Assembly (NCBI GenBank): GCA_040757205.1
Contig: JBFLXL010000007.1
Coordinates: 1 to 44,142, forward strand
Source of the DNA: Bacillota bacterium
GTDB lineage: Bacteria; Bacillota; Desulfotomaculia; Desulfotomaculales; Desulforudaceae
Direction of reading: 5' to 3'
DNA length: 44,142 bases
The translations under genes were made by a program, and so were the position numbers. The notes beneath the pieces were generated by a model that had not been told where the DNA came from, did no database searches, and was given only the letters and a program-made list of their open reading frames with translations. Below, one piece after another: positions 18,123 to 43,650 of the stretch (position 1 is its first letter; each line of letters begins with the position of its first letter).

Positions 18123-19418
18123 TTATTCGAGGCGCAGGGAATTTAATGCGTCGGCGAATCCGGGGAAGGACACGTCGATACAGCCGGAATCGCGGATGAT
18201 GGTGACGTCGGACGCGGCTAGGCCGGCTACGGCAGCCGCCATCGCGATGCGGTGGTCGCCGTGACTTTCGCACTCACCTCCGGTGAGCCGCCGCGGCCCC
18301 CGGATTACCAGGCCGTCGGGCGTCTCCCCGATATCGGCCCCCAGCCCGCTCAGTTCGTTGCGGGTGGCCGTCAAACGGTCGGACTCTTTTACCCTGAGTT
18401 CCGCGGCGTCGCGGATCACCGTTTCCCCGTCGGCGTACGCCGCGGCCACCGCCAGGACGGGAATCTCGTCCACCAGCCTCGGGATCAGAGCCCCCTCAAT
18501 CACTGTGCCGCGCAGGGCGCTTGACCGGACCCGGATGTCGGCCACCGGTTCCCCGCCGGTTTCCCGGGGCCGGCTCACGGAGATCCGCGCCCCCATGTCC
18601 GCCAGGGCGTCAAGTATTCCGGTCCGGGTCGGATTGACGCCCACGTCCTTCAGCACCAGGTCGCTCTCAGGCGTAATCAGCGCGGCGACGATGAAAAAGG
18701 CGGCCGAGGAGATGTCGCCCGGGATTCTGATTTCACGCCCGCCGAGATCCGGGGAGGGAGATACCGTCACTACTCGGCCCCGGCGCGCCACCCGCGCCCC
18801 GAAGGCGTTCAGCATCCGCTCGGTGTGGTCCCGGGTCGCCACCGGCTCCGTGATCTCCGTCGGCCCGTCCGCAAACAGCCCGGCCAGGAGCAGGGCCGAT
18901 TTCAACTGGGCCGAGGCCACCGGAAGCCAATACTTGAGGCCCGAAAGCCGGCCCCCGGTCACGGCGATCGGCGCCAGATTAGCGTTGTCGCGGCCCAATA
19001 TGGTCGCGCCCATCTCCCGGAGCGGCCCGGTCACCCGGCCCATCGGACGCCGCCGCAGAGAGGCGTCGCCCGTAAGCACGCTAAAAAAGGGCTGCCCGGC
19101 CAGAATCCCAAGCATCAGCCGCATAGTGGTTCCGGAATTGCCGGCGTCGAGCACGTCCGGGGCCTCGGTCAGGGCCTTGGGCCCGCGGCCCCGGATCCGG
19201 ACGGCGTCTTTGTCCGGCCCCTCGATTTCTACGCCGAGAGCCCGGAAACAGCGCACGGTGGCCAGACAGTCTTCCCCGGGCAGGAAATTGGTGGCCGCCG
19301 TTTCCCCGTGTGCCAGGGAGCCCAGCATTACCGCCCGGTGCGAAATGGATTTATCGCCCGGGACGCAGATCTCACCGCGCAGGCCCCGGGCCGGCGTAAC
19401 GGTCAGGGTCAAAAACAC
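18123..19418 (-). CDS. aroA: 3-phosphoshikimate 1-carboxyvinyltransferase (EPSP synthase)
   Basis: AroA transfers the enolpyruvyl group of PEP to shikimate 3-phosphate, the step before chorismate synthase. The 431-residue product has both family motifs: [16 protein letters not shown] (residues 20-35) with the essential Lys, and [16 protein letters not shown] near residue 90, plus the C-terminal [17 protein letters not shown] and [18 protein letters not shown] 19418 is preceded by GAGGCGGTGA. It is the last gene of the aromatic cluster; 100 nt with a GTAGTCG tandem repeat separate it from cmk. Confidence 0.97.
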
Positions 19419-19435
19419 TCACCGCCTCAACTGGA

Positions 19436-19735
19436 TTCTGGGTCACCGAGGGGAAACGGGGGAAACGGGGTCAGGCCCCTTTTTTCCTTCCTTTTCCCCG
19501 TGGGGGACTGGTCACCGAGGGGGACAGGCACGTTTTTGGCTGCATCAACTGCCCGGGGTCCAATTCGATTGCCTGCCCAAAAACGAGCCAGTCCCCCGGG
19601 GCGAAAAAGGGGGACAGTCCCCTATTTTTCTGCCCGAGCCAGTCCCCTGGGGCGCCCAACGGACGCACCCGCTACCGGAAAAGCTGTCAGAGTCTTTTTC
19701 CCGGTCACTCATGCTACAAGGGGGTCAGTGCCTGG
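19436..19735. repeat. Cluster of REP-like palindromic repeats between aroA and tyrA
   Basis: The 305-nt gap 19419-19724 has no gene but many G- and C-run palindromes built on GGGGACTGG / GGGGACAG and their complements. A 20-bp motif CGAGCCAGTCCCCCGGGGCG occurs at 19584-19603 and, with one mismatch, at 19635-19654. GGGACTGG at 19504-19511 faces CCAGTCCC at 19588-19595, giving a long imperfect hairpin. Similar GGGGACAG-type repeats are scattered through genomes of this group and resemble REP sequences mobilised by REP-associated tyrosine transposases; that link is inference. Confidence 0.65.
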
Positions 19736-20819
19736 TCACCGGGATCCCTTCGCCGGCCAGCAGTTCGGCGGCCCGGTCCCGGTCCCGTGCGGCGCCGAAG
19801 GCCAGGCGGACGGTGCCGCCTTCACCTTCCCGCACCCGGAGGATCTCCAGGTCGGAAATGTTTATTTCGTGCCGGCCGAGGAGCGAGGCCACCGTGGCAA
19901 TGGTCCCCGGGCGGTCGGAAATGGTGATGGTGATTTCGTGGAGGTCTTTCAAGTATCCCTTCGCCCGGGCCGGCAGGCCTTCCCGGCTCTCCCGTGCCTT
20001 TTGGAGCCAGGCGGTGATTTCTTCCGCCCCGCCTTCATCCAGGGCGCCTTCAATAACGTTCAGTTCCTCGCGGAACCGGTGCAGCAGAGCCTTCAGCATC
20101 CCCCGGTTGGCCAGGAATATGTCGAGCCACATCGGAGGACTGCCGGCCGCCACCCGGGTGGTGTCGCGGTAGCCGCCGGCCGCCAGCGCCAGCGCCCGTT
20201 CCGAACCTTCCATCCCGGCCACCGTATTCACCAGGGTGCAGGCCAACAGGTGCGGCAGGTGGCTGACGGCGGCCACGGCCCGGTCATGTTCCCCGGGCGT
20301 CATCTCGATCACCCGGCACCCCAACCCCTCCGCCATCAACCGCACCCGCGCAGACGCCCGCCTATCAGTGTGGGGCGTGGGAGTGAGGACGTAGTACGCG
20401 CCCTCAAACAGGTAACGGTCGGCACCGCCGATCCCGGCCTGCTCCGAACCGGCCATGGGGTGCCCGCCCACGAAGTGCACCCCGGCGGGAGTGATCCGAG
20501 CGGCGGCGTCCACCACCGCCGCTTTGCAGCTCCCGACATCCGTCACAATGGTTCCCGGTCGCAGGTGCGGCACCACCAAGCGCAACACCGGGATGATGCT
20601 GGCCACCGGAACGGCGATGACCACCAGTTCGGCGCCGGCCAGTCCGGTTTGGGGGTCGGTGGTGAAATGATCGACCGCGCCCCGCGCAAGCGCCTCCTGC
20701 AGGCGCGACGGGTCGCGGCCGACGCCGGTCACGGTGCGGGCTAATCCCCGGGCCCTTAAACCCAGGCCGATAGAGCCCCCGATGAGGCCCACACCGATAA
20801 TGGACACCTGGTTAAACAA
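19725..20819 (-). CDS. tyrA: Prephenate dehydrogenase with C-terminal ACT domain
   Basis: TyrA oxidatively decarboxylates prephenate to 4-hydroxyphenylpyruvate on the way to tyrosine. The 364-residue product has the NAD motif VSIIGVGLIGGSIGLGLRA at the N-terminus, HPMAGSEQAG in the active site (with the catalytic His), and a C-terminal ACT domain (EITITISDRPGTIATVASLL) that normally senses tyrosine. The start is TTG 20819, with AAGGAGAG about 7 nt upstream; the frame also extends to a TTG at 20846 without a ribosome binding site. It follows aroF by 35 nt and is separated from aroA by the repeat cluster. Confidence 0.95.
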   Translation of the reverse strand: MFNQVSIIGVGLIGGSIGLGLRARGLARTVTGVGRDPSRLQEALARGAVDHFTTDPQTGLAGAELVVIAVPVASIIPVLRLVVPHLRPGTIVTDVGSCKAAVVDAAARITPAGVHFVGGHPMAGSEQAGIGGADRYLFEGAYYVLTPTPHTDRRASARVRLMAEGLGCRVIEMTPGEHDRAVAAVSHLPHLLACTLVNTVAGMEGSERALALAAGGYRDTTRVAAGSPPMWLDIFLANRGMLKALLHRFREELNVIEGALDEGGAEEITAWLQKARESREGLPARAKGYLKDLHEITITISDRPGTIATVASLLGRHEINISDLEILRVREGEGGTVRLAFGAARDRDRAAELLAGEGIPVTRH

Positions 20820-20854
20820 AAAAGCTCTCTCCTTAAACGCCGGCAACCTGACCG

Positions 20855-21868
20855 CTAGACTCTCCGCCCGACTGCCTGCGCGACTTGTGCCAACTGAACC
20901 ATAGTCTTCCCAAACTTCTTCGGGGTCAGGGACTGCGCCCCGTCACACAAGGCCTCGGACGGGTTGGGGTGGACTTCGATCAGGAGGCCGTCGGCCCCGG
21001 CGGCCACGGCGGCCAGGGCCATCGGCGGCACGAACTTGTACTTGCCGATGCCGTGACTGGGGTCGACCACCACCGGCAGGTGGGAGAGATGCTTGACGAT
21101 CGGCACGGCCGAAAGGTCCAGGGTATTCCGGGTAAAGGTCTCAAAACTGCGGATCCCGCGTTCGCACAGGATTACGTTCGGGTTCCCCTCGTTCAGGATG
21201 TACTCGGCCGCCATCAGCCACTCCTCAATGGTGGCCGACAGGCCGCGTTTCAACAGGACCGGTTTGTTGTACCGGCCCACTTCGCGGAGCAGGTAGAAAT
21301 TCTGCATGTTCCGGGTGCCGATCTGGATGATGTCCGCGTACTCGGCCACCAGGGGCAGCGTCTGGGCGTCCATGACCTCGGTCACGATCAGCAGACCGTA
21401 CCGCGCCCGGGTCTCGGCCAGAAGCTTAAGCCCCGTCTCGGCCAGTCCTTGGAAAGCATAAGGGGATGTGCGGGGCTTGTAGGCGCCGCCCCGCAAAATC
21501 CGGGCTCCGGCCTCCCTGACTCTTTCCGCCACCTCAAAAAGCTGTTCTTCGCTTTCCACCGCGCACGGGCCGGCCATCACCTGGACGGTGTCGCCGCCGA
21601 TGGTCACGTCCCCGATGGCGACCACCGTGCGCTCGGATTTCATCACCCGGCTGGCCAGTTTGTACGGGGCCATGATCGGGATGACCTTGTCCACCCCCGG
21701 CAGGAGTTCGATCCCGGCGTCCCCGAGGATGGTCTCGTCGCCGATGGCCCCGATAATCGTCCGCTCCACCCCGCGGGAAAGGTGGGCCCGGTAGCCGGCC
21801 GACTCTATTCTCTTCACGACAGACTCAATCTCAGCTTCGCTCGCCTCATGGTGCATTACAATGACCAT
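20855..21868 (-). CDS. aroF: 3-deoxy-7-phosphoheptulonate synthase (DAHP synthase, type I-beta)
   Basis: This enzyme condenses PEP and erythrose 4-phosphate, the first step of the shikimate pathway. The 337-residue product begins with a ferredoxin-like regulatory domain (about residues 1-65) followed by the barrel with [43 protein letters not shown] and [10 protein letters not shown], whose Cys, His, Glu and Asp residues hold the metal. This is the Thermotoga/Bacillus-like type I-beta form, usually feedback-regulated by tyrosine or phenylalanine through the N-terminal domain. It lies 3 nt after hisC, so the two are surely one transcript. Confidence 0.95.
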
Positions 21869-21871
21869 CCT

Positions 21872-22960
21872 TTACTCCTCCTCCAGAAACGTTTCCAGGG
21901 CTTTGATGAACTTTCGATTCTGGTCGCGGGTGCCGATGGTGACCCTCAGGCGGGTGGGATAACCGAACCCACCCCGAATAATGACGCCCCGGCGCAATAG
22001 GCCTTGAAACACCGCTTTTTCGTCCCGGCCGACGTCAAACAGGATGAAGTTCGCCTCGGTAGGCACATAGGGCAACCCCATCCGGACCAATTCACGGTAA
22101 AGGTATTCCTTTTCCTCCCGGTTCAGCTTCCGGAGCGCCTCCACGTGGGCCTGGCCGGCCAATGCGGCGACCGCTGCTTCCTGGGCCATGCTGTTCACGT
22201 TAAACGGTTCGCGCACCCGCTCCAGGCAGTCCACGATCCCCGGCCGCGCCACGGCGTAGCCGACACGCAGCCCGGCCAGCCCGTACATCTTGGAAAAAGT
22301 GCGCAGCACGACCACATTAGGAAGAGCGGCGACGTAGGCCAGCCCGTCCGGGTAGCGCGGGTCGTCAACGTACTCGAAATAGGCCTCGTCCAGCACCACC
22401 AGGCAGCGCCGGGGCACAACGCCCATAAAACGGTCCAGTTCCGCGCGGCCGACGATGGTGCCGGTCGGGTTGTTCGGGTTGCAGATGTACACCAGCTTGG
22501 TGCGCGAGTTCAGGCGCGCGGCCATGGCCTCCAGGTCCAGGGTGTCGTCCTTAAGCGGCACCTCCACCGGCACGGCGTTCATCATCCGGGCCAGCGGCTG
22601 GTAGCGCGGAAAACTGGGAACAGGCATCAGTGCTTCGTCACCCGGATCCAGAAAAGCCAGGGAAATCTGCTGGACGATTTCATTGGAACCGTTGCCCAGG
22701 TGTACTTGCCCGGGGTCGAGGCCGTAAAATTCGGCCAACGCCTGCCGCAACCGGTAGCTCGACCCGTCGGGATAATAGTGTACCCCGTAAGCGGCGTTTT
22801 TCAGAACTTCGATTACTTCCGGGGACGCTCCGACGGCGTTTTCGTTCGACGCCAGCTTCACGACCTCCGTGAGGCCGAGTTCCCGCTGTACTTCCTCAAT
22901 GGGCTTGCCCGGCCGGTACACCGCCAGGTCCAGGATGTTCCCCCGCGCCAGTTCAGACAA
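21872..22960 (-). CDS. hisC: Histidinol-phosphate / aromatic aminotransferase
   Basis: This is a PLP aminotransferase of fold type I, 362 residues. The PLP lysine is in RTFSKMYGLAGLRVGYAV, with CNPNNPTGTIV and DEAYFEYV upstream. In Bacillus, the hisC of the aromatic supraoperon acts in histidine and in phenylalanine/tyrosine synthesis, and the position here (between trpA and aroF/tyrA) suggests the same double role; that is inference. The start is TTG 22960, with GGGGAGGGAG 8 nt upstream. The 105-nt gap to trpA contains an AT-rich stretch but no convincing promoter. Confidence 0.92.
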   Translation of the reverse strand: MSELARGNILDLAVYRPGKPIEEVQRELGLTEVVKLASNENAVGASPEVIEVLKNAAYGVHYYPDGSSYRLRQALAEFYGLDPGQVHLGNGSNEIVQQISLAFLDPGDEALMPVPSFPRYQPLARMMNAVPVEVPLKDDTLDLEAMAARLNSRTKLVYICNPNNPTGTIVGRAELDRFMGVVPRRCLVVLDEAYFEYVDDPRYPDGLAYVAALPNVVVLRTFSKMYGLAGLRVGYAVARPGIVDCLERVREPFNVNSMAQEAAVAALAGQAHVEALRKLNREEKEYLYRELVRMGLPYVPTEANFILFDVGRDEKAVFQGLLRRGVIIRGGFGYPTRLRVTIGTRDQNRKFIKALETFLEEE

Positions 22961-23065
22961 CCGACTCCCTCCCCGGGACGGAACCTCTTTGTCGACTAAG
23001 GATACATCTTGCGGCTCCGAAATAGTTTATAAAAAATGTTACCACCAACCCCGGAGGCACGCAAC

Positions 23066-23869
23066 CTATAATTTCCGTAGTGTTTGTTTCAGTTCAAGCA
23101 CCAGACTCCCCACTCTGTTGACGCTCCCGTTCTTATCCGTGCCTTGGATCAATTCGATGACGGCGCTGCCCACGATCAAAGCGTCGGCGTGGGGAGCCAG
23201 CGCGCGCACCTGGTCTCCGTGGGCGATGCCGAAGCCGACCGCGACCGGCAGTCCGGTATGCTCCCGCACCGTCCGGCACACCCCCGCCAGCTTTTCGGAG
23301 TAGCCGGCCCGCGCACCGGTCACGCCCGTCACCGACACGCAGTACACGAAGCCCCGGGCTTGCGCGGCGATCGCGGCGATCCGGCGTGGCGTGGAGGTCG
23401 GCGCCACCAGGGGGATCAGGTCCAGCCCGTATTCATCCGCCAGGGCGAGCACCGGGCCGGCTTCTTCCAGCGGCAGGTCCGGGATGATCAGGCCGTCGGC
23501 GCCGGCCCCGGCGGCAGCGGAAGCCAGCCGCTCCGGCCCGAAGCTGAGAATGGGATTGAAATAACTCATCAGCACCAAAGGAACATCGGTCTCCCGCCGC
23601 AGTTCCCGTACCAGCGCCAGGATCGCGGCCAGGGTTGTACCCGTTGCCAGCGCGGCCTGTGAGGCCCGCTGGATCACCGGACCGTCCGCCAGCGGGTCGG
23701 AAAACGGCACCCCTAGTTCAATCACGTCGGATCCCGAATCCGCCATCGCCAGCACCAGGCTCCTGGTCGTCTCCAAATCCGGGTAGCCGGCAGTTACAAA
23801 GGTGATAAGCCCCTTTTCCCCCCGCTCGCGCAGCCGCTCGAAGGCGACGGCGATCCGCCCGCCGCTCAT
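23066..23869 (-). CDS. trpA: Tryptophan synthase alpha subunit
   Basis: TrpA cleaves indole-3-glycerol phosphate to indole, which is channelled to TrpB. The 267-residue product carries the catalytic Glu and Asp in [20 protein letters not shown] (near residues 47-66), with [10 protein letters not shown] before them, plus [11 protein letters not shown] and [13 protein letters not shown]. The ATG at 23869 overlaps the trpB stop as ATGA, typical of coupled trpBA. Confidence 0.98.
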
Positions 23870-25050
23870 GGCCGCACCTCCCCCGCCACCGTCTCGACAT
23901 CTTTGTCCCCCCGGCCCGAGAGGTTGACGACGATCGACGCCGCCGGCGTCAGCGTCCGGGCCAGCTTCACCGCCTCGGCGACGGCGTGGGCGCTTTCCAG
24001 CGCGGGCAGGATGCCCTCCGTCCGGCAGAGCAGCCGGAAAGCGTCCAACGCCTCGGCGTCCGTGGCGGCGGTGAAGAGGACCCGGCCCGAATCTTTTAGA
24101 TAGCTCAGTTCCGGGCCCACCCCCGGGTAGTCCAGCCCGGCGGAGACCGAATGCACCGGCAGCACCTGGCCGTGGTCATCCTGCAACAGGTAACTCAGCG
24201 AACCGTGCAGCACCCCCGGCCGACCGCGGGACAGGGTCGCCGCGTGGCGGCCCGTTTCCGGGCCGAGCCCCCCGGCCTCCACGCCGACCAGACACACCTT
24301 CGGTTCCCCCAGGAACTCCGAGAACATGCCCATGGCGTTCGAGCCCCCGCCAACGCAGGCCACCACGTAGTCCGGCAGACCACCGGTCAGCCGAACGGCC
24401 TGCCGGCGCGTCTCCCTCCCGATCACCGACTGGAATTCCCGGACCATCAAAGGGTACGGGTGGGGCCCGGCCACCGAACCGATCAGGTAGTAGGTGTGTT
24501 CCACGTTGGTCACCCAATCGCGGATGGCCTCGTTCATCGCGTCTTTCAGGGTTTTGCTCCCCGCGGCCACCTCAACCACCTCGGCGCCCAAAAGCCGCAT
24601 CCGGAACACGTTCAGCGCCTGACGCCGCACGTCCTCGACGCCCATAAAGATGGTGCAGGAAAACCCAAACAGCGCGGCCGCCGTAGCGGTGGCCACGCCG
24701 TGCTGTCCGGCGCCCGTCTCGGCGATGAGCCGCTTTTTCCCCATCCGCCGGGCCAGCAGCGCCTGGCCGAGGGTGTTGTTGATCTTGTGCGCCCCGGTAT
24801 GGTTCAAGTCCTCCCTCTTGAGGTAGATACGGGCGCCTCCGGCGTAACGGCTCAGGTTCGCGGCGAAGTGCAGGGGGCTCGGCCGGCCCACATAGTGACT
24901 CAGGTAGTAGTCGATCTCCTGCTGGAACCGCTCGTCCGCCCGGGCGCTCTGATAGGCCTGCCCCAACTCCTCAAGCGCCGACATGAGTGTCTCGGGAACG
25001 TAGCGGCCCCCGAAAGCGCCGTAGTACCCCTTCTCATCCGGCAGCATCAT
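23866..25050 (-). CDS. trpB: Tryptophan synthase beta subunit (TrpB1 type)
   Basis: TrpB1 joins indole and serine to tryptophan with PLP. The 394-residue product has the family start [15 protein letters not shown], the PLP lysine in [17 protein letters not shown] (near residue 87), [13 protein letters not shown], and the phosphate-binding [12 protein letters not shown] loop. The start at ATG 25050 overlaps the trpF stop by 4 nt; ATG 25047 is also possible. It is a canonical partner of TrpA, unlike the second beta subunit at 42261-43616. Confidence 0.98.
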
Positions 25051-25664
25051 CCCGCCTCCCTTGCCAGTGTAATGAAACGGCGAATTTTCTCCGGGTCTTT
25101 GACCCCCCCGGTTTCGACCCCCGTGGAAACGTCCACCCCGTAAGGGCGGACGGCGGTGATCGCCGCCTGGACGTTTTCGGGATTCAAGCCCCCCGCCAGA
25201 ATGACCGGCCGGGAGAACTTCAGGGACTCCACGAGCCGCCAGTCGAACACCCGCCCCGTGCCGCCCGGCCGCCCCCCTGCGGCGGTGTCCAGCAACAGCG
25301 CCCAGACCGGATACGCGGCGCTGTCCCGCTCCAGGTCCCCGGCGGAACTCCTGGTCACCCCGAAAGCTTTGACTACCCGCACCTGAAAATCCCGGCAGTA
25401 GTCCGGACTTTCCCGCCCGTGGAATTGGAGCGCCCCCAGCCCGCAGTACGCAGCGATTCCACGGACCGTTTCCGGATCTTCGTCCACGAAAACCCCCACG
25501 GTGAGCACTTCCGGGGGCAGTCTCCGGATGATGTCGCGTGCCGTTTCCGGTGCGACCCGGCGTCTCCCCGAAGCGAACACGAAGCCTAGGGCGTCTGCGC
25601 CGGCGGCCGCCGCCGCCAGGGCGGTATCAAGGTTGGTAATCCCGCAGATTTTAACCAGGGTCAT
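25047..25664 (-). CDS. trpF: Phosphoribosylanthranilate isomerase
   Basis: TrpF isomerises phosphoribosylanthranilate in the third step of tryptophan synthesis. The roughly 205-residue TIM-barrel protein starts [15 protein letters not shown], with the catalytic Cys in KICGIT, and has [18 protein letters not shown] and the C-terminal [11 protein letters not shown] and [10 protein letters not shown] motifs with the catalytic Asp. ATG 25664 fits the family best although GGGAGG lies only 2 nt before it; ATG 25685 lacks any ribosome binding site. An unusual 174-nt spacer with direct repeats separates it from trpC. Confidence 0.95.
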
Positions 25665-25726
25665 CGCCTCCCAGGTGCCAGGCATTTGACTTATTCACTT
25701 GTGGTGCCGCCCTCCTTGATTTCTCC

Positions 25727-25824
25727 TGTCGCTTCCTCATTCAATAAGCCTGTTGTACGAGTGCCACATCTGCGGCGGCTTTGTTCTTGCATGTCGCTTG
25801 CTCATTCAATAAGCCCGGCATACG
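25727..25824. repeat. Direct repeat in the trpC-trpF spacer
   Basis: A 24-bp motif, read on the plus strand as TGTCGCTTCCTCATTCAATA plus AGCC, occurs at 25727-25750 and 25792-25815 with one mismatch. Weaker similarity extends the units to about 33 bp (25727-25759 and 25792-25824), with an insert of about 32 nt. It interrupts an otherwise tightly packed trp operon. I see no gene, terminator or promoter in the gap 25665-25838. Confidence 0.7.
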
Positions 25825-25838
25825 GCGTCCTTGAACCA

Positions 25839-26615
25839 TCAGGCCGTCCCCAGGAGTTCCCGGACGCGGGCCCCGATGTCGCCGGCCCGCATCAGGGCCT
25901 CCCCCACCAGGGCGGCGTCCACACCCCAGGCCGCCAGCGTCAGCATGTCCTCCCGGGTGCGGATGCCGCTCTCGCTGACTTTGGTCACCCCGGCCGGCAG
26001 ATGGGCCGCCAATTCCCGGGTGTGCTTGAGATCGGTCCGGAAAGTGCCCAGGTCCCGGTTGTTGATCCCCACCAGACTCGCCGCCGCAGCGGTGGCGCGC
26101 TCCAGCTCCCCCGGGGTATGGACTTCGACGAGAGGCTCCATGCCAAGCGCCACGGTCAGTTCCATGAGGTCTTTCAGTTCGTGGTCGTCCAGGGCGGCGG
26201 CGATTAACAGGACCGCGTCCGCGCCCAGCACGCGGGACTCGTAAACCTGGTGCCCGGAGATGATGAAATCCTTGCGCAACAGCGGCAGGGCCACGCTTTG
26301 CCGGATTGCCGAAAGGTATTCCGGACGGCCGCCGAAATAGGTGCGGTCCGTAAGCACGGAAACGGCGGCGGCCCCGGCGCCCTCGTAAAGGCCGGCGATT
26401 TCCACCGGGTCGAAGGCGGCCCGGATCACTCCGGCCGAAGGGGAACGGCCCTTAACTTCGGCGATCAGGGACACCCCGGGCTGCGCCCGCAGCGCCCGGC
26501 TGAGGCTCCGGGTGGGCGGCGCGGCGGCGGCCGCCTCCCGCCAGGCCGCCAGTGACGTTCTCCGCCGCAGCGTCTCCACCTCGCTACGCTTGGAGGCGAT
26601 TATCTGGTCCAGCAT
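25839..26615 (-). CDS. trpC: Indole-3-glycerol phosphate synthase
   Basis: TrpC closes the indole ring. The 258-residue barrel protein shows the standard N-terminus [27 protein letters not shown] with the catalytic Lys and Glu, LRKDFIISGHQVYES, LVEVHTPGELERA, GINNRDLGTF, and SESGIRTREDM. The family length is normal. ATG 26615 lies inside the end of trpD (16-nt overlap), so translation is probably coupled. Confidence 0.98.
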   Translation of the reverse strand: MLDQIIASKRSEVETLRRRTSLAAWREAAAAAPPTRSLSRALRAQPGVSLIAEVKGRSPSAGVIRAAFDPVEIAGLYEGAGAAAVSVLTDRTYFGGRPEYLSAIRQSVALPLLRKDFIISGHQVYESRVLGADAVLLIAAALDDHELKDLMELTVALGMEPLVEVHTPGELERATAAAASLVGINNRDLGTFRTDLKHTRELAAHLPAGVTKVSESGIRTREDMLTLAAWGVDAALVGEALMRAGDIGARVRELLGTA

Positions 26616-27627
26616 GCTTTTCCCCGCCCCGTAAATTCAATCAGTCGCGTCAATCGCTCCCGGGCCGCCCCGGAATCCAAGCACTCGGCCGCGAGGCGCA
26701 CCGCTTGGGCCATGTCCCCGGCCCGGCCCGCGGCCAAAAGCGTCAGGCCCGCGTTTAACAGCACGGCGTCCCGCCGCGGCCCGGAGGTGCCCTGCAGGAT
26801 TTCCAGCGTGATCCGGGCGTTGTCCGGCGGGGAACCGCCGGACAGTGACTCGACACCGGCCCGGGCAAACCCCAGTTCCGCCGGGTCAAGGACCCCCGCC
26901 CGCACCGAACCGGGGCGCACTTCCCAGACCTTGGCCGGGCCGGCCGGGGATACCTCATCAAGACCGGCGGCTCCGTGGATCACAAATGCGCGTTCCACGG
27001 CCAGGCCGCACAGGGCATCGGCCACCAACTCCGCGACCGCCGGGTCGAACACCCCCAGCACCTGAATCCGGGGGCGCACCGGGTTGGTCAGCGGCCCCAG
27101 GATGTTGAACACGGTCCGGATGCCGAGTTCCTGCCGCGGTCCGGCAGCGTGCCGCATAGCCCGGTGCAGGTGCGGCGCGAAAAGAAAGGCGATCCCCACC
27201 TCGTCGAGGCAGGCTCCCATCTCGGCCGGGGTCAAGTCCAGGTTCACCCCCAGATGGCGCAGGACGTCCGCGCTGCCGCACCGGCTGGAGACCGCCGTGT
27301 TGCCGTGTTTGGCCACCGGCACTCCGGCGCCGGCCACGACGAAGGCGGCGGTGGTGGAGATATTGAAAGTCTGGGCGCCGTCACCGCCGGTACCGCAGGT
27401 GTCGGCCACCAGTTCGTGCCGCGTCGGCACCGGTTCGGCCCGCGCCCGCATCGCCAGGGCGAAGCCCCTGATTTCCGCCGCCGTCTCTCTCTTCAGGCGC
27501 AGCCCGGCCAGCAACGCGCCGATCTGCGCGGGCGTGGCCCGGCCGTCCATAATGTCGGCCATGACCGCTTCCGCTTCGTGCTGCTCCAGGTCCTCCCCGC
27601 CGACCAGTTTCTGCAGCGCTTCCCGGA

Positions 27628-27631
<4 letters not shown>
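26600..27631 (-). CDS. trpD: Anthranilate phosphoribosyltransferase
   Basis: TrpD adds phosphoribose from PRPP to anthranilate. The 343-residue product has the PRPP motif [20 protein letters not shown], the anthranilate-site [17 protein letters not shown], and [13 protein letters not shown] and [11 protein letters not shown], all intact. I chose TTG 27631, which overlaps the trpG stop as TTGA, follows GGAGGGGAGGG by 8 nt and gives the standard N-terminus [14 protein letters not shown]; the open frame extends to 27697 inside trpG. It is not fused to trpG, unlike in enterobacteria. Confidence 0.97.
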
Positions 27632-28217
<586 letters not shown>

Positions 28218-28221
<4 letters not shown>

Positions 28222-29684
28222 GTTAAGGCCCCCTGTGCCGCCCGAATCAAGGCGGATGCCTTGTGCATCACTTCCTGGTACTCGCGGTCCGGATCGGAAT
28301 CAGCGACGATGCCCGCCCCGGCCTGGATATAGACCTGGCCGTCGCGGACGACGGCGGTGCGGATGGCGATACAGGTATCCAGGTTCCCGGTCAATCCCAG
28401 GTAACCGACCGCCCCGGCGTAGATACCGCGGCGGGAGGGTTCAAGTTCCTCAATGATCTCCATGGCCCGCACCTTCGGCGCGCCGCTTACCGTGCCCGCG
28501 GGGAACACGGCCCCCAGCGCCTCCAGGGCGGTTCGTCCGGACTCAAGGGTCCCCCGGACCTCCGAGGTGAGATGCATCACGTGAGAATAGCGCTCCACGG
28601 CCATAAACAGGGGGACTTGCACCGAACCGGGTGCGCACACCCGGGACAGGTCATTCCGGCCCAGGTCGACCAACATCAGGTGCTCCGCCCGCTCCTTCGC
28701 GTCCCCTTTCAGTTCTTCCTCGTAGGCCAGGTCGCCGGCCCGGCCGGCGCCCCGGGGGCGGGTTCCGGCAATCGGCCTGGTCCGCACCGCGCCGCCCTCC
28801 ACCCGGACCAGCATCTCCGGAGAGGCGCCGACCACCGTGGCGGAGCCCAGGTCCAGGTAGAACAGGTACGGCGAGGGATTGATGATCCGGAGCCTCCGGT
28901 ACATTTCAAAGGGCGGTGTTTGCAGCGGAACCCGCAGCCGCAGGGATAGAACCACTTGTAGTATTTCTCCCGCGGCGATGTACTCCTTGGCCCGGCGCAC
29001 CGCGGCCTTAAAGGCCTCCGGGGTGGTCTCCGCCACCACCCGAAGCTGCCCGTTCCCCGTGGCCGGAAGGCCGCCGTATTCCGGAAACCGTCCGTCCAGG
29101 GTCTCCCGCAGGCGTTGAATCCGGGCACAGGCTCGCGCGTGGGAGGCATCGGGATTATCGCCGACCATGGTGTTCACCACCGCTTTCAGGGTGTGCTGGA
29201 CGTGGTCGAAAATCAACACCGTTTCCGGGAACATCACGCTGCAGTCCGGAAGACCGAGGTTGTCCGGGGCGCTCGCCGGCAGCCGCTCCAGGTGGCGGAC
29301 CAGGTCATAGCCGAAATACCCGACGGCGCCGCCGAAAAACCGGGGCAGATCAAGGTCGGGACAGCGGTACTGCCCCAACGTACGGGCCAGGATATCGAGG
29401 GGATGACCGCTCACCGCCTCTTCGCCGGCTGCGCTGCGCATCACGCCCGCACCGTTCTTCAATTCCAGCGTCCACAAGGGATCGAAGCCCATAAAGGAGT
29501 ACCGGCTCAGGCTTTCGCCACCCTCCACGCTCTCCAGCAAGAAACACGGGCCTTGGGGCTCTAGACGCTTGAAAATGGAAATCGGGGTCTCCATGTCGAT
29601 GGTCCATTCCTGAAAAACGGGAATCAGGTTATTTGTCTCCGCCAGCATCCGGTATTGTTCGATGGAGGGGTTTACCGCGCTCAA
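28218..29684 (-). CDS. trpE: Anthranilate synthase component I
   Basis: TrpE makes anthranilate from chorismate using ammonia from TrpG. The 488-residue product carries the tryptophan feedback-site motif [19 protein letters not shown] near the N-terminus and the catalytic ADC-synthase domain with [39 protein letters not shown] and [14 protein letters not shown]. The start is TTG 29684, preceded by GGAAGGAGG; the frame stays open back to 29720 across the leader terminator, but those codons lack a ribosome binding site. A TTGACA promoter element, NAG repeats and a rho-independent terminator lie in the 170 nt upstream, so expression is probably controlled by attenuation. Confidence 0.97.
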
Positions 29685-29701
29685 GGCCGCGCCTCCTTCC
29701 C

Positions 29702-29735
29702 AAAATACAAAAACCGACACTCAGAAGAGCGCCGG
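29702..29735 (-). terminator. Leader terminator (attenuator) of the trp operon
   Basis: On the minus strand CCGGCGCTC (29735-29727) pairs with GAGTGTCGG (29722-29714) in nine base pairs (two G-U) around a TTCT loop. TTTTT at 29713-29709 and a further TATTTT follow. It ends just before the trpE ribosome binding site (29700-29692). A rho-independent terminator inside a leader, upstream of the gene it would block, is the hallmark of attenuation. The 5' arm and loop (29730-29723, GCTCTTCT) can instead pair with AGATGAGC at 29771-29764. Confidence 0.75.
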
Positions 29736-29754
29736 CAAGGTCTTGCGCACCAGG

Positions 29755-29796
29755 CTCAACTCAGCTCATCTATCTCGCCCTGTCTCCGCTACGCTG
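29755..29796 (-). promoter_or_regulatory. Probable TRAP-binding NAG repeat region of the trp leader
   Basis: On the minus strand nine NAG triplets begin every 4-6 nt. In plus coordinates their complements are at 29794 (CAG), 29789 (UAG), 29784 (GAG), 29780 (CAG), 29774 (GAG), 29770 (UAG), 29765 (GAG), 29760 (GAG) and 29755 (GAG). The mean period is 4.9 nt. TRAP (MtrB) of Bacillus wraps RNA with about eleven G/UAG triplets spaced by 2-3 nt. The distances from the likely transcription start (about +30 to +71) and to the terminator (about +91) resemble the Bacillus leader as I remember it. Binding of TRAP would block the antiterminator and favour termination. No Trp-rich leader peptide and no T-box were seen. 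Confidence 0.65.
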
Positions 29797-29830
29797 GTCC
29801 CAATTACCGAACCGGTTGGTTACATTCGTA

Positions 29831-29859
29831 TAAATACCACACCCGGGCGGAGTTGTCAA
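29831..29859 (-). promoter_or_regulatory. Candidate trp operon promoter
   Basis: On the minus strand a perfect TTGACA (-35) at 29859-29854 is followed, after 17 nt, by TATTTA at 29836-29831, a weak -10. The -35 overlaps the TGA stop of the upstream HD-GYP gene. The predicted start near 29825 would give a leader of about 140 nt before trpE. Confidence 0.5.
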
Positions 29860-30962
29860 TCGTTTTGGAAGATTTCCCCCAACGTTTGCCGGATGGTCCG
29901 AACTTCCTCGTCGTCCAAGACCCGGCTGACCCACAGGTTTTCCTGCACGGTCGACCGGGTGTAAGGAAGCACCTTTCGCCTCTGGGCGTTGAGCAGTATC
30001 CGCACGTTAGGGAAGAAGGGATGCGCCTGCGGGGTGTCGACTACGACCCCGACTTCCCCGGAACTCAGCACGACCAAAGTTCCCGTAGGATAGGCCGCCA
30101 CGCAGCGCACGAAGTTATGCACCAACCTGGTGTCAAACCACCAGTTCCCCGAACCGGCGATTAATTCCAGAGCGTCGTGGGGCGCGTGCGCCTTGCGGTA
30201 ACACCGTTCGGATGTGAGCGCGTCGTAAATGTCGGCTATCCCCACCATCTGAGCGAGGTAGTTGATGTCCCTTCCCTTGAGTCCAAGAGGATAACCTCCC
30301 CCGTTGTAACGCTCGTGATGGGCGTAAGCAATGACGCTGGAAGCCGGGTGTCCACCGAGGATATCCCGCCCGTGGGCGCAATGCAGCTTGACCTGGTCAA
30401 ACTCGTCAGCCGTCAGCGATCCCGGCTTGTTCAAGATCTCGGCGGGGACCCGTACTTTCCCGGCATCGTGCAGCAGAGCGCCCACCCCGAGATTGATCAG
30501 TTGTTCTCTTTGGAGCCCATAGTTTATTCCGGCGAGGACGGCCAGCACGCACACGTTTACCGAGTGGTGAAAGAGGTACGCTCCCTCGGTACGAATATCG
30601 ACCAGGTTGACGGTGGAGAAGGGGTTTTTCAATAAGTCGCCGACAATGGCGTCCGCTACCCGGGTAATGTCCTGAGTAACATTGATCGCTTTTGTTCCGG
30701 GCCTGGACCATTCCATGAGCGATTTTCGGACCTGCATTATGGCGTCCCGTCTGGTCTTATCCGATATAACGTCCTGCACGAACACCCCGTCAAGCAGGCG
30801 GTCCTCCACATAAACGGAGCTAAAGCCGATCTTCTCCAGCCGTTGAATGTACTTCCTGCTTAAAGTGACACCGGCCGCCAAATACACCTCGCCGCCGGTG
30901 CCCAGGACCGGCCGCGCCAGCCGCATTCCCGGTTCAAGGTAGTTCACCGGTACCTTTCGCAT
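29856..30962 (-). CDS. HD-GYP domain protein (probable c-di-GMP phosphodiesterase), copy A
   Basis: HD-GYP proteins hydrolyse cyclic di-GMP. The product is about 368 residues: an N-terminal region with KVPVNYLEPGMRLARPV, then the HD-GYP domain with HHSVNVCVLA, the metal-binding HDAGKVRVP, and HHERYNGGGYPLGL containing the GYP motif. There is no receiver, PAS or membrane segment. I chose ATG 30962; the frame extends to 31067 but would overlap the upstream copy. It is a tandem duplicate of 30989-32101, sharing the N-terminal and C-terminal sequences (VLDDEE near the end). Its stop overlaps the -35 of the trp promoter. A role in tryptophan control is not evident. Confidence 0.9.
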   Translation of the reverse strand: MRKVPVNYLEPGMRLARPVLGTGGEVYLAAGVTLSRKYIQRLEKIGFSSVYVEDRLLDGVFVQDVISDKTRRDAIMQVRKSLMEWSRPGTKAINVTQDITRVADAIVGDLLKNPFSTVNLVDIRTEGAYLFHHSVNVCVLAVLAGINYGLQREQLINLGVGALLHDAGKVRVPAEILNKPGSLTADEFDQVKLHCAHGRDILGGHPASSVIAYAHHERYNGGGYPLGLKGRDINYLAQMVGIADIYDALTSERCYRKAHAPHDALELIAGSGNWWFDTRLVHNFVRCVAAYPTGTLVVLSSGEVGVVVDTPQAHPFFPNVRILLNAQRRKVLPYTRSTVQENLWVSRVLDDEEVRTIRQTLGEIFQND

Positions 30963-30988
30963 CGATAGGCCATCTCCGTTTTTTGGCT

Positions 30989-32101
30989 TTAAGCCTGCCC
31001 GCTGTGCAAAGCCTTCTTGATGAAAGAGATCTCTTCCTCGTCCAACACCCTGGCTACAAACAGGCATTTGTCCAGGGTGGAGACATCATGCGCGTCGCCC
31101 AGCCAACCACCATCAGCCGCGACAAACACGCGCACCACCGGTTGGGTCGGGAACCCCTTGGGCGTGCTCACCACCACACCGATCTCCCTGGAGTTCAGTT
31201 CCACCAGTGTGCCGACCGGGTAGGCCGCCACGTTGACCACAAAAGCACGTACCAGATCGAAGTCAAACCAGAAATCTCCGGCCCCCAGCAGCATCTCCAG
31301 AGCCTGGTCCGGACGGTAGGCCTTCCGGTAGCACCGGTCGGCCGTCAGGGCGTCGAACAGATCGGCAATGCCGACAATCTGGACCAGCGGCGGGATCTCC
31401 CCTGCCTTCAGCCCTCTTGGGTAACCCTCGCCGTTCAGCCGCTCGTGATGCATACCGGCCAACGCCGCCGCCGGGGGATTGTTCTGAAGCAACTCCTCGG
31501 CATGCAGCGTGTGTTTCTTAACCAGATCGAACTCCTCCGCGCTCAGTTTTCCGGGCTTGTCCAGGATTTCCGCGGGAACTCTGATCTTCCCCACGTCGTG
31601 CATCAGCGCTCCGATTCCCAGTTCATACAGCTCACGCCGGGAGAGGCCGATCTGCGCGCCGATAACCAGCGCCAGGGCGCAGACATTGACTGAGTGGTGG
31701 TACAAATACTCATTTTGGGCACGGAGGTCGTAGATGTTGATGGTTGGGGAGGGGTTCTCCACAACTTGACTCACCATGTCACTGACCGTCCGGGCCAGTT
31801 CTCTCGGCGGCTCAATCACCTTGGCCCCGGACTCCGCCGTTTCCCGGAGGAGGTTAGCAACTCCGCTGACTGCTTCGCGCCGGGTTTCATCGCGCACTAC
31901 GTCCTCGGCTTGGGCTACGTGGAGATCACCCAGCAAAGCATCGCGCACATATACGGACACAAAGCCGAGTTCAGCCAGCTTGCGGATGTACCCTGGCGTG
32001 AGGATGACTCCGGTTTGGAGGTAGACCTCACCGTGGCCTCCCGCTACTTCCCTGGCGATCCGCATGCCCGGGACCAAGGCTGAAACAGGGACTCTACGCA
32101 T
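30989..32101 (-). CDS. HD-GYP domain protein (probable c-di-GMP phosphodiesterase), copy B
   Basis: This 370-residue protein has the same layout as copy A: RRVPVSALVPGMRIAREV at the N-terminus, HHSVNVCALAL, the metal site HDVGKIRVP, and HHERLNGEGYPRGL. All expected HD-GYP residues are present, so phosphodiesterase activity is likely. Copies A and B lie 26 nt apart and look like an old tandem duplication. They separate aroH from trpE, which are neighbours in the Bacillus supraoperon. It follows aroH by 30 nt and is probably co-transcribed with it. Confidence 0.9.
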   Translation of the reverse strand: MRRVPVSALVPGMRIAREVAGGHGEVYLQTGVILTPGYIRKLAELGFVSVYVRDALLGDLHVAQAEDVVRDETRREAVSGVANLLRETAESGAKVIEPPRELARTVSDMVSQVVENPSPTINIYDLRAQNEYLYHHSVNVCALALVIGAQIGLSRRELYELGIGALMHDVGKIRVPAEILDKPGKLSAEEFDLVKKHTLHAEELLQNNPPAAALAGMHHERLNGEGYPRGLKAGEIPPLVQIVGIADLFDALTADRCYRKAYRPDQALEMLLGAGDFWFDFDLVRAFVVNVAAYPVGTLVELNSREIGVVVSTPKGFPTQPVVRVFVAADGGWLGDAHDVSTLDKCLFVARVLDEEEISFIKKALHSGQA

Positions 32102-42158: not shown

Positions 42159-42186
42159 GTCCGCCTCCCGGCCTGAAAAAAGATTC

Positions 42187-42297
42187 CTATACTTGGGGCA
42201 GCCCGGCGAGGGAGTGCTGCAGCAAGTAAGACCGGGCCTTGCGCATACCCTCGTCGGGGACTATACTTGGGGCAGCCCGGCGAGGGAGTGCTGCAGC
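42187..42297. repeat. Duplicated 3' end of trpB2 with a 37-nt insert
   Basis: A 37-bp sequence, beginning CTATACTTGGGGCAGCCCGG on the plus strand, is present without any mismatch at 42187-42223 and 42261-42297. The insert (42224-42260) is also 37 nt. The copy at 42261 is the real end of trpB2, including its TAG stop; the other copy lies downstream, in the trpB2-lysA gap. Because the copies are identical, the event is recent or the repeats recombine. Confidence 0.95.
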
Positions 42298-43616
42298 TCG
42301 GCCTCAGGCAGGGGGTAGTCCTGCAGCGACCCGGCCAGGAAATCGTCGTAGGCGGCCAGGTCCAGGTAACCGTGCCCGCTCATGCAAAATACGATCGTCT
42401 TGCCCTCTCCGGCTTCCCGGCAGGCAATCGCTTCCTCGACCGCGCAGGCCACGGCGTGTGCCGACTCCGGCGCCGGGACGACGCCCTCGGTCTGCGCGAA
42501 CAACACCGCGCTCTCGAACACCTGCTTCTGACCGTAGGCCACCGGGTGGATGAAACCGTCCCTGACCGCCTGACACAAGAGCGGGGCGTCCCCGTGGTAG
42601 CGCAGGCCGCCGGCGTGAATGCCGGGGGGCATGAAGTCCTTGCCCAGGGTGTACATGTGAATCAGGGGCGTCAATCCGGCCACGTCCCCGAAGTCGTAGG
42701 CCAGTTTGCCCCGGGTCAGCGTCGGGCAGGCCGTGGGTTCCACGGCCAGCAACCGCGGCGCGGCCTCACCCTTGATGATCTGCTCCACGAACGGAAAGGC
42801 GAAGCCGGAGAAGTTGCTTCCGCCGCCGCAGCAGCCGATGGCGATGTCGGCTTGCTCGCCGGTCTTGGCCAGCTGGGTCCTGGTCTCCAGGCCGATGACC
42901 GTCTGGTGCAACAGTACGTGGTTCAAAACGCTTCCCAATGCGTAGTTGGTATCGGCACGCTTGGCGGCGTCTTCCACCGCTTCGCTGATCGCCAATCCCA
43001 GGCTGCCCGGAGAATCCGGATTGGCGGCCAGTGCCGCCCGGCCCGCCTCGGTCCGGTCACTGGGGCTCGGGATGACTTCGCCGCCGAAGATCTGCATCAG
43101 CGAACGGCGGTAGGGTTTCTGCCGGTAGCTGACCTTCACCATATACACGGTGCACTCCAGTCCAAAGAACCGGCAGGCCATGGCGAGCGCACTGCCCCAC
43201 TGCCCGGCACCCGTTTCGGTGGCCAGCCTTTTCACGCCCGCCCGCTTGTTGTAGTAGGCTTGCGGTGCCGCGGTGTTCAGCTTGTGGCTGCCCGCCGGAC
43301 TGTAGCCCTCGTATTTGAAGTAGATGCGTGCCGGCGTGTCGAGCGCCTTCTCCAGGCGCAAGGCGCGAATCAGCGGGGTGGGCCGCCAGAGACGGTAGAT
43401 GTCCCTAATCTCGTCTGGGATCGGGATCCATTTGTCGGTGGAAACCTCTTGCATGATGAGTTCCATCGGGAAAATGGGGGCCAGGTCCTCCGGCCCGATC
43501 GGTTGCCTGGTGCCTGGGTGCAGCGGCGGTGGAACCGGGTTGGGGAGGTCGGCCTGAATATTGTACCAGGCCTCCGGGATCTCGGCTTCCGACAACAGGA
43601 TCTTGGTTTGGGTCAC
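42261..43616 (-). CDS. trpB2: Tryptophan synthase beta-like PLP enzyme (TrpB2)
   Basis: TrpB2 proteins form tryptophan from indole and serine, and some use O-phosphoserine; they lack a strong partnership with TrpA. The 451-residue product is longer than TrpB1, with a family-specific N-terminus [15 protein letters not shown] and HPGTRQPI. The PLP lysine is in [19 protein letters not shown], followed by [15 protein letters not shown] and the phosphate loop [15 protein letters not shown] 43616 was chosen from the AGGAG 5 nt upstream; the frame runs on to 43679. It is separated by about 17 kb from the trp operon and appears to have its own promoter. Confidence 0.95.
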
Positions 43617-43650
43617 TAAAACTCCTCTCCTCTCAAAAAAACTCATTTTC

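Follow-up and report, generated by a model that had tools for sequence, protein, structure and literature searches.

A predicted TRAP-controlled attenuator in the leader of a clostridial trp operon

Attenuation by TRAP has, to our knowledge, been studied almost only in Bacillus, and TRAP outside the bacilli is said to have been noted before in genome comparisons. Does such an attenuator also govern the trp operon encoded on the minus strand of the window, that is, of the whole 44,142 nt stretch of Desulfotomaculales DNA analysed here? A preliminary description of this DNA proposed a TRAP-type attenuator ahead of the operon, and the proposal is supported by the mtrB (TRAP) gene, by a triplet array, by a terminator and by the conservation of these elements in relatives. 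We therefore predict, with high confidence, that the trpE leader is a TRAP-controlled transcription attenuator.

Elements of the trp leader

The first gene of the operon is trpE (28218-29684, minus strand), which encodes anthranilate synthase component I (TIGR00564, 560.8 bits). Among named genomes, matches came from close MAGs and distant phyla; the nearest was MAG UBA911 (TrpE 94% identical), followed by Candidatus Desulfopertinax cowenii and a Desulforudis MAG, and a Desulforudis-like MAG is the likely source of the window. Its open frame, 28218-29720, opens earlier, but the starts of relatives match the TTG at 29684, and this start was assigned by homology. A Shine-Dalgarno sequence, GGAAGGAGG, was read directly at about 29692-29700. 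Profile matches place trpG, trpD, trpC, trpF, trpB, trpA, a hisC-type aminotransferase gene, DAHP synthase and tyrA (prephenate dehydrogenase) 3′ of trpE (18123-28221, minus strand), with aroA at the end from an earlier reading. A long gap separates trpC from trpF (25690-25830, minus strand), and within it GGCTTATTGAATGAG.AAGCGACA occurs twice as a direct repeat. Among relatives, five operons gave no match to the TrpB of the window (L149 in G048, L152 in G040, L155 in G031, L167 in G034 and L163 in G018); TrpB2 or a distant trpB may substitute in some of these.

The trp promoter (29831-29859, minus strand) was read directly as TTGACA at 29859-29854, a 17-nt spacer and TATTTA at 29836-29831, just as first described. 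It shares positions with the stop codon of ORF 29856-31067, which lies upstream, and TTGACA is kept at this position in the relatives whose leaders were read. A consensus promoter scanner made no call at this TTGACA-N17-TATTTA. A terminator scan identified an intrinsic terminator, the attenuator, at 29703-29736 (minus strand), where the hairpin GCCGGCGCTC-TTCT-GAGTGTCGGT at 29736-29713 (-16.6 kcal/mol) is followed by the U tract TTTTGTATTT. The terminator lies between the triplet array and trpE, with its U tract just 5′ of the trpE ribosome-binding site. The preliminary description was thus right about a terminator and U tract before this site, but it gave a stem of 9 bp where the scanner gives 10 pairs, 6 of them GC. 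The leader as a whole has no unusual fold stability (z -0.36). An Rfam scan of the window returned 0 families, T-box included, at the gathering score and no T-box match upstream of trpE, in agreement with the absence of a T-box noted earlier.

The predicted TRAP-binding site (29755-29796, minus strand) consists of nine NAG triplets and is supported by direct reading, shuffles, conservation and the presence of mtrB in the genome. From 29796 to 29755 it reads CAG-cg-UAG-cg-GAG-a-CAG-ggc-GAG-a-UAG-au-GAG-cu-GAG-uu-GAG, with periods of 5, 5, 4, 6, 4, 5, 5 and 5 nt (mean 4.9 nt), so that the number of triplets and the mean period stand as originally reported. Seven triplets are GAG or UAG and two are CAG, and two spacers measure 1 nt; both weak points had been recognised from the outset. 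Triplet chains were scored by awarding 2 to GAG or UAG, 1 to AAG and 0.3 to CAG, and by penalising spacers other than 2-3 nt. The array scored 11.4, which makes it the top chain of the window (the runner-up scored 8.8), and this score was reached by 0/5000 dinucleotide shuffles of the 170-nt leader and by 0/100 shuffles of the whole window. Stable TRAP binding has been described for RNAs with at least 7 (G/U)AG triplets (PMC4027176), and the TRAP motif has been stated as (NAG)9-11 (PMC4347634); against the published minimum of 7 triplets, the trpE leader has 7 GAG/UAG plus the two CAG. A run of five triplets at 21847-21824 (minus strand; score 8.8), roughly over codons 8-15 of the gene for DAHP synthase, is kept in the genus. 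It was set aside as a TRAP site, being inside a gene and probably coding.

TRAP and the conservation of the leader

The genome (2.03 Mb, 26 contigs, 97.5% complete) was searched for mtrB, a gene whose absence had been named beforehand as counting against TRAP. A single mtrB was found (G000:C1:280288-280488), with 136 bits against a cut-off of 21.3 and an E-value of 7.3e-40. It is located elsewhere in the genome, outside the window, and by eye is flanked upstream by a DNA polymerase III alpha-like frame and downstream by an acetyl-CoA carboxylase beta-like frame. TRAP chains in the PDB match this MtrB at E-values of 8e-25 to 6e-53. Moreover, it is 55% identical to B. subtilis TRAP and keeps its EK, KxRG and AQFTEHT motifs; we take EK and KxRG to be the RNA-contact motifs and AQFTEHT to be the Trp-pocket motif of TRAP. 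The gene is widespread, being present in 58/60 genomes of an order sample, own genome included, and in 200/398 genomes of a phylum sample. Anti-TRAP (rtpA) gave no match above the cut-off in the own genome, and exceeded it in 1/60 genomes. Sub-threshold anti-TRAP matches fell inside a 377-aa frame and were rejected, the frame being DnaJ-like by its length and zinc motif.

The regions upstream of trpE were compared in 48 genomes, own included. A triplet chain scoring at least 7 was present in 46/48, and a script detected a terminator hairpin with a U run 3′ of the array in 41/46 of these leaders, whilst the remaining five mostly showed an interrupted hairpin by eye. The conservation of triplets and terminator that the preliminary description had called for is therefore observed. 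The terminator helix is paired in 97.3% of cells in an alignment of leaders. Many relatives carry 9-11 near-perfect GAG/UAG triplets, and G035 has 11; the own array, with its two CAG and two 1-nt spacers, is among the more degenerate. The arrays of relatives are orthologous in position and diverged in sequence. Across 41 trp operon regions, chains scoring at least 7.8 numbered 81 on the sense strand vs 1 on the antisense strand.

Antiterminator and mode of control

A candidate conserved antiterminator (29727-29757, minus strand) begins at the last triplet and pairs GAGC-CUGGU at 29757-29749 with GCCGG-C-GCUC at 29736-29727 in the 5′ arm of the terminator. Across 11 aligned leaders, 87.8% of cells of the helix GAG-N-CUGG/CCGG-N-CUC were paired, vs 32-53% when it was slid, and one pair showed a G-C to A-U exchange. 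Covariation of the helix in this alignment was not above shuffles, so that the helix rests on conserved complementarity. When relatives' leaders were folded up to the terminator loop, the last AUGAG/GAG and the next nucleotides typically paired with CUC(AU) and ACC(GG) of the 5′ arm. Moreover, the mean number of expected pairs between array and arm was 5.2 vs 2.1 with the upstream sequence shuffled (Wilcoxon P 7e-7 over 41 leaders, a value that is indicative since the leaders are related). Across leaders, pairing thus links the 3′ triplets to the terminator 5′ arm, and TRAP on the array would therefore block an antiterminator.

In the own leader this array-arm pairing amounts to only 0.4 pairs and lies below shuffles. 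The free fold (-20.6 kcal/mol), the conserved helix (-18.3) and the helix of the preliminary description (-17.1) all fall within about 3.5 kcal/mol, and the best alternative fold is some 2 kcal/mol more stable than the conserved helix. In the free fold a spacer hairpin occupies the same terminator arm and the triplets are not used. For the own leader, the folding energies thus do not single out one antiterminator. The pairing of AGATGAGC with GCTCTTCT, proposed in the preliminary description, does exist as a complementarity, but it is not the helix conserved in relatives; likewise, the proposed overlap of array and antiterminator holds as complementarity across relatives, whereas the own fold singles out none. 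Folding with the NAG region masked, a check suggested at the outset, gave the terminator when the triplets were blocked. For the lineage, the evidence for a switch between array and terminator is good; in the own leader such a switch is plausible.

The predicted mechanism would be as follows. When tryptophan is plentiful, a Trp-loaded TRAP ring would bind the GAG/UAG triplets as the leader is being transcribed and withhold the 3′ triplets from the antiterminator, the GC-rich terminator at 29736-29713 would fold, and RNA polymerase would stop short of trpE. With little tryptophan available, TRAP would be inactive, the terminator 5′ arm would be engaged by CUGG together with the 3′-terminal part of the array next to it, and the trp operon would be transcribed. 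TRAP binding, its dependence on tryptophan and the exact antiterminator in this species are what we infer here.

The same elements could be read in other ways. A constitutive terminator, or one regulated by a leader peptide or a T-box, might happen to lie beside a purine-rich AG run, and these genomes do contain chance AG-rich stretches, such that loose triplet patterns hardly exceed a reversed control. The shuffles, however, exclude a chance array, the Rfam scan shows no T-box, and neither the orthologous arrays at the same place despite diverged sequence nor the strong strand bias (81 vs 1) fits such a coincidence, which we regard as very improbable.

Somewhat less remote, albeit still unlikely, is that TRAP binds the array and acts mainly on trpE translation, through access to the ribosome-binding site, or stops the polymerase directly, with the hairpin switch playing a minor part. 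In B. subtilis, trpE translation is also under TRAP control, via a hairpin that hides the Shine-Dalgarno sequence (PMC11255114), and TRAP is able to promote termination by a route that does not depend on the attenuator hairpin (PMC3913778); in the own leader no antiterminator overlapping the array is clearly favoured. Such a reading sits poorly with the strong terminator and U tract found between array and ribosome-binding site in most relatives, in some of them >100 nt before the trpE match, and with an array-arm complementarity that exceeds chance across relatives. Control of transcription through the terminator hence remains our preferred reading.

Further candidate targets and comparison with Bacillus

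A second predicted TRAP site in the window, GAG-ag-GAG-ag-GAG-uuu-UAG (43616-43634, minus strand), spans the Shine-Dalgarno sequence to the GTG start of trpB2 (42261-43616, minus strand), which encodes a TrpB-like PLP enzyme (NF009057, 728 bits). Chains scoring at least 7.8 occurred at -60 to +15 of trpB2 in 19/30 orthologues, own included, vs 1/76 background genes with a Shine-Dalgarno sequence; the Fisher P of 2e-12 overstates this enrichment because the genes are related and the Shine-Dalgarno sequence itself contributes GAG motifs. At the own site 4 triplets are in phase, short of the 7 published for stable binding. On sequence grounds, trpB2 is probably another TRAP target within the window. 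The 3′ end of trpB2 and the stretch just past it (42185-42300, plus strand) carry a direct repeat, TATACTTGGGGCAGCCCGGCGAGGGAGTGCTGCAG, of about 35 bp.

In 18/40 relatives (e.g. L147, L157, L139 and L141) clusters of 4-11 NAG triplets, in chains again scoring at least 7.8, occur in the start region of trpD, which suggests that TRAP also acts on translation inside the operon; the own trpD start has no such chain. With a loose pattern, arrays were also detected in relatives before TrpP (PF17099), TrpX, a phenylacetate-CoA ligase-like gene and two transporters, and shortly before indolepyruvate ferredoxin oxidoreductase alpha in L212 (identified by HMM) and in L204 and L215 (by N-terminal similarity). 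Given the loose pattern and its high background in the reversed control, these additional arrays are leads only. In L206 and L216, an NCS1-type permease gene is preceded by triplet runs that resemble each other (GAGtaTAGg.. ..AGctTAGgtGAG). In the own genome the loose scan gave four matches, no more than the reversed control, among which only the trpE leader and trpB2 are sensibly placed. TrpP is absent from the own genome, and indolepyruvate oxidoreductase alpha was below the cut-off there. In the TRAP literature searched we found no description of trpB2, trpD or indolepyruvate oxidoreductase as TRAP targets.

The B. subtilis trp leader has 11 triplets, an antiterminator from +60 to +111 and a terminator from +108 to +133 (PMC4027176). 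The leader described here shares its order of promoter, (G/U)AG array with a period of about 5 nt, terminator and trpE, with a TRAP gene in the genome. It also resembles it in an antiterminator shared by array and terminator arm, a likeness drawn from relatives' leaders, as the own fold does not single it out. In contrast to the 11 triplets of B. subtilis, there are 9 here (7 GAG/UAG), and they are less perfect. The terminators of bacilli have been described as weak, with interrupted U stretches (-12.6 kcal/mol in B. subtilis, -8.4 kcal/mol in B. halodurans; PMC3913778), whereas the own terminator is GC-rich, strong (-16.6 kcal/mol) and has a U tract. Moreover, unlike in B. subtilis, trpG lies inside the operon, and no anti-TRAP was found in the own genome. 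The triplets in the translation initiation regions of the own trpB2 and of trpD in relatives resemble the translational TRAP sites of B. subtilis at trpG, trpP and ycbK (PMC11255114), and relatives' TrpP genes with arrays upstream resemble B. subtilis trpP.

The kind of attenuator is already known, and the list of targets would, as far as sequence can indicate, be partly new. One reading, on which we are evenly divided, is that TRAP in this lineage serves a wider regulon than in Bacillus, taking in trp attenuation, trpP, trpB2, trpD of relatives, uptake through trpX and breakdown through indolepyruvate ferredoxin oxidoreductase. On this same reading TRAP would work without anti-TRAP and on strong intrinsic terminators, and trpB2 and trpD would be controlled by repression of translation.

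Taken together, these data point to conservation of TRAP attenuation in a clostridial lineage of anaerobes. The strong terminators raise the question of whether TRAP needs direct action on the polymerase there. Lastly, if the sites at trpB2, trpD and indolepyruvate oxidoreductase are true, the known targets of TRAP would be joined by an alternative subunit of tryptophan synthase and by genes of tryptophan breakdown.
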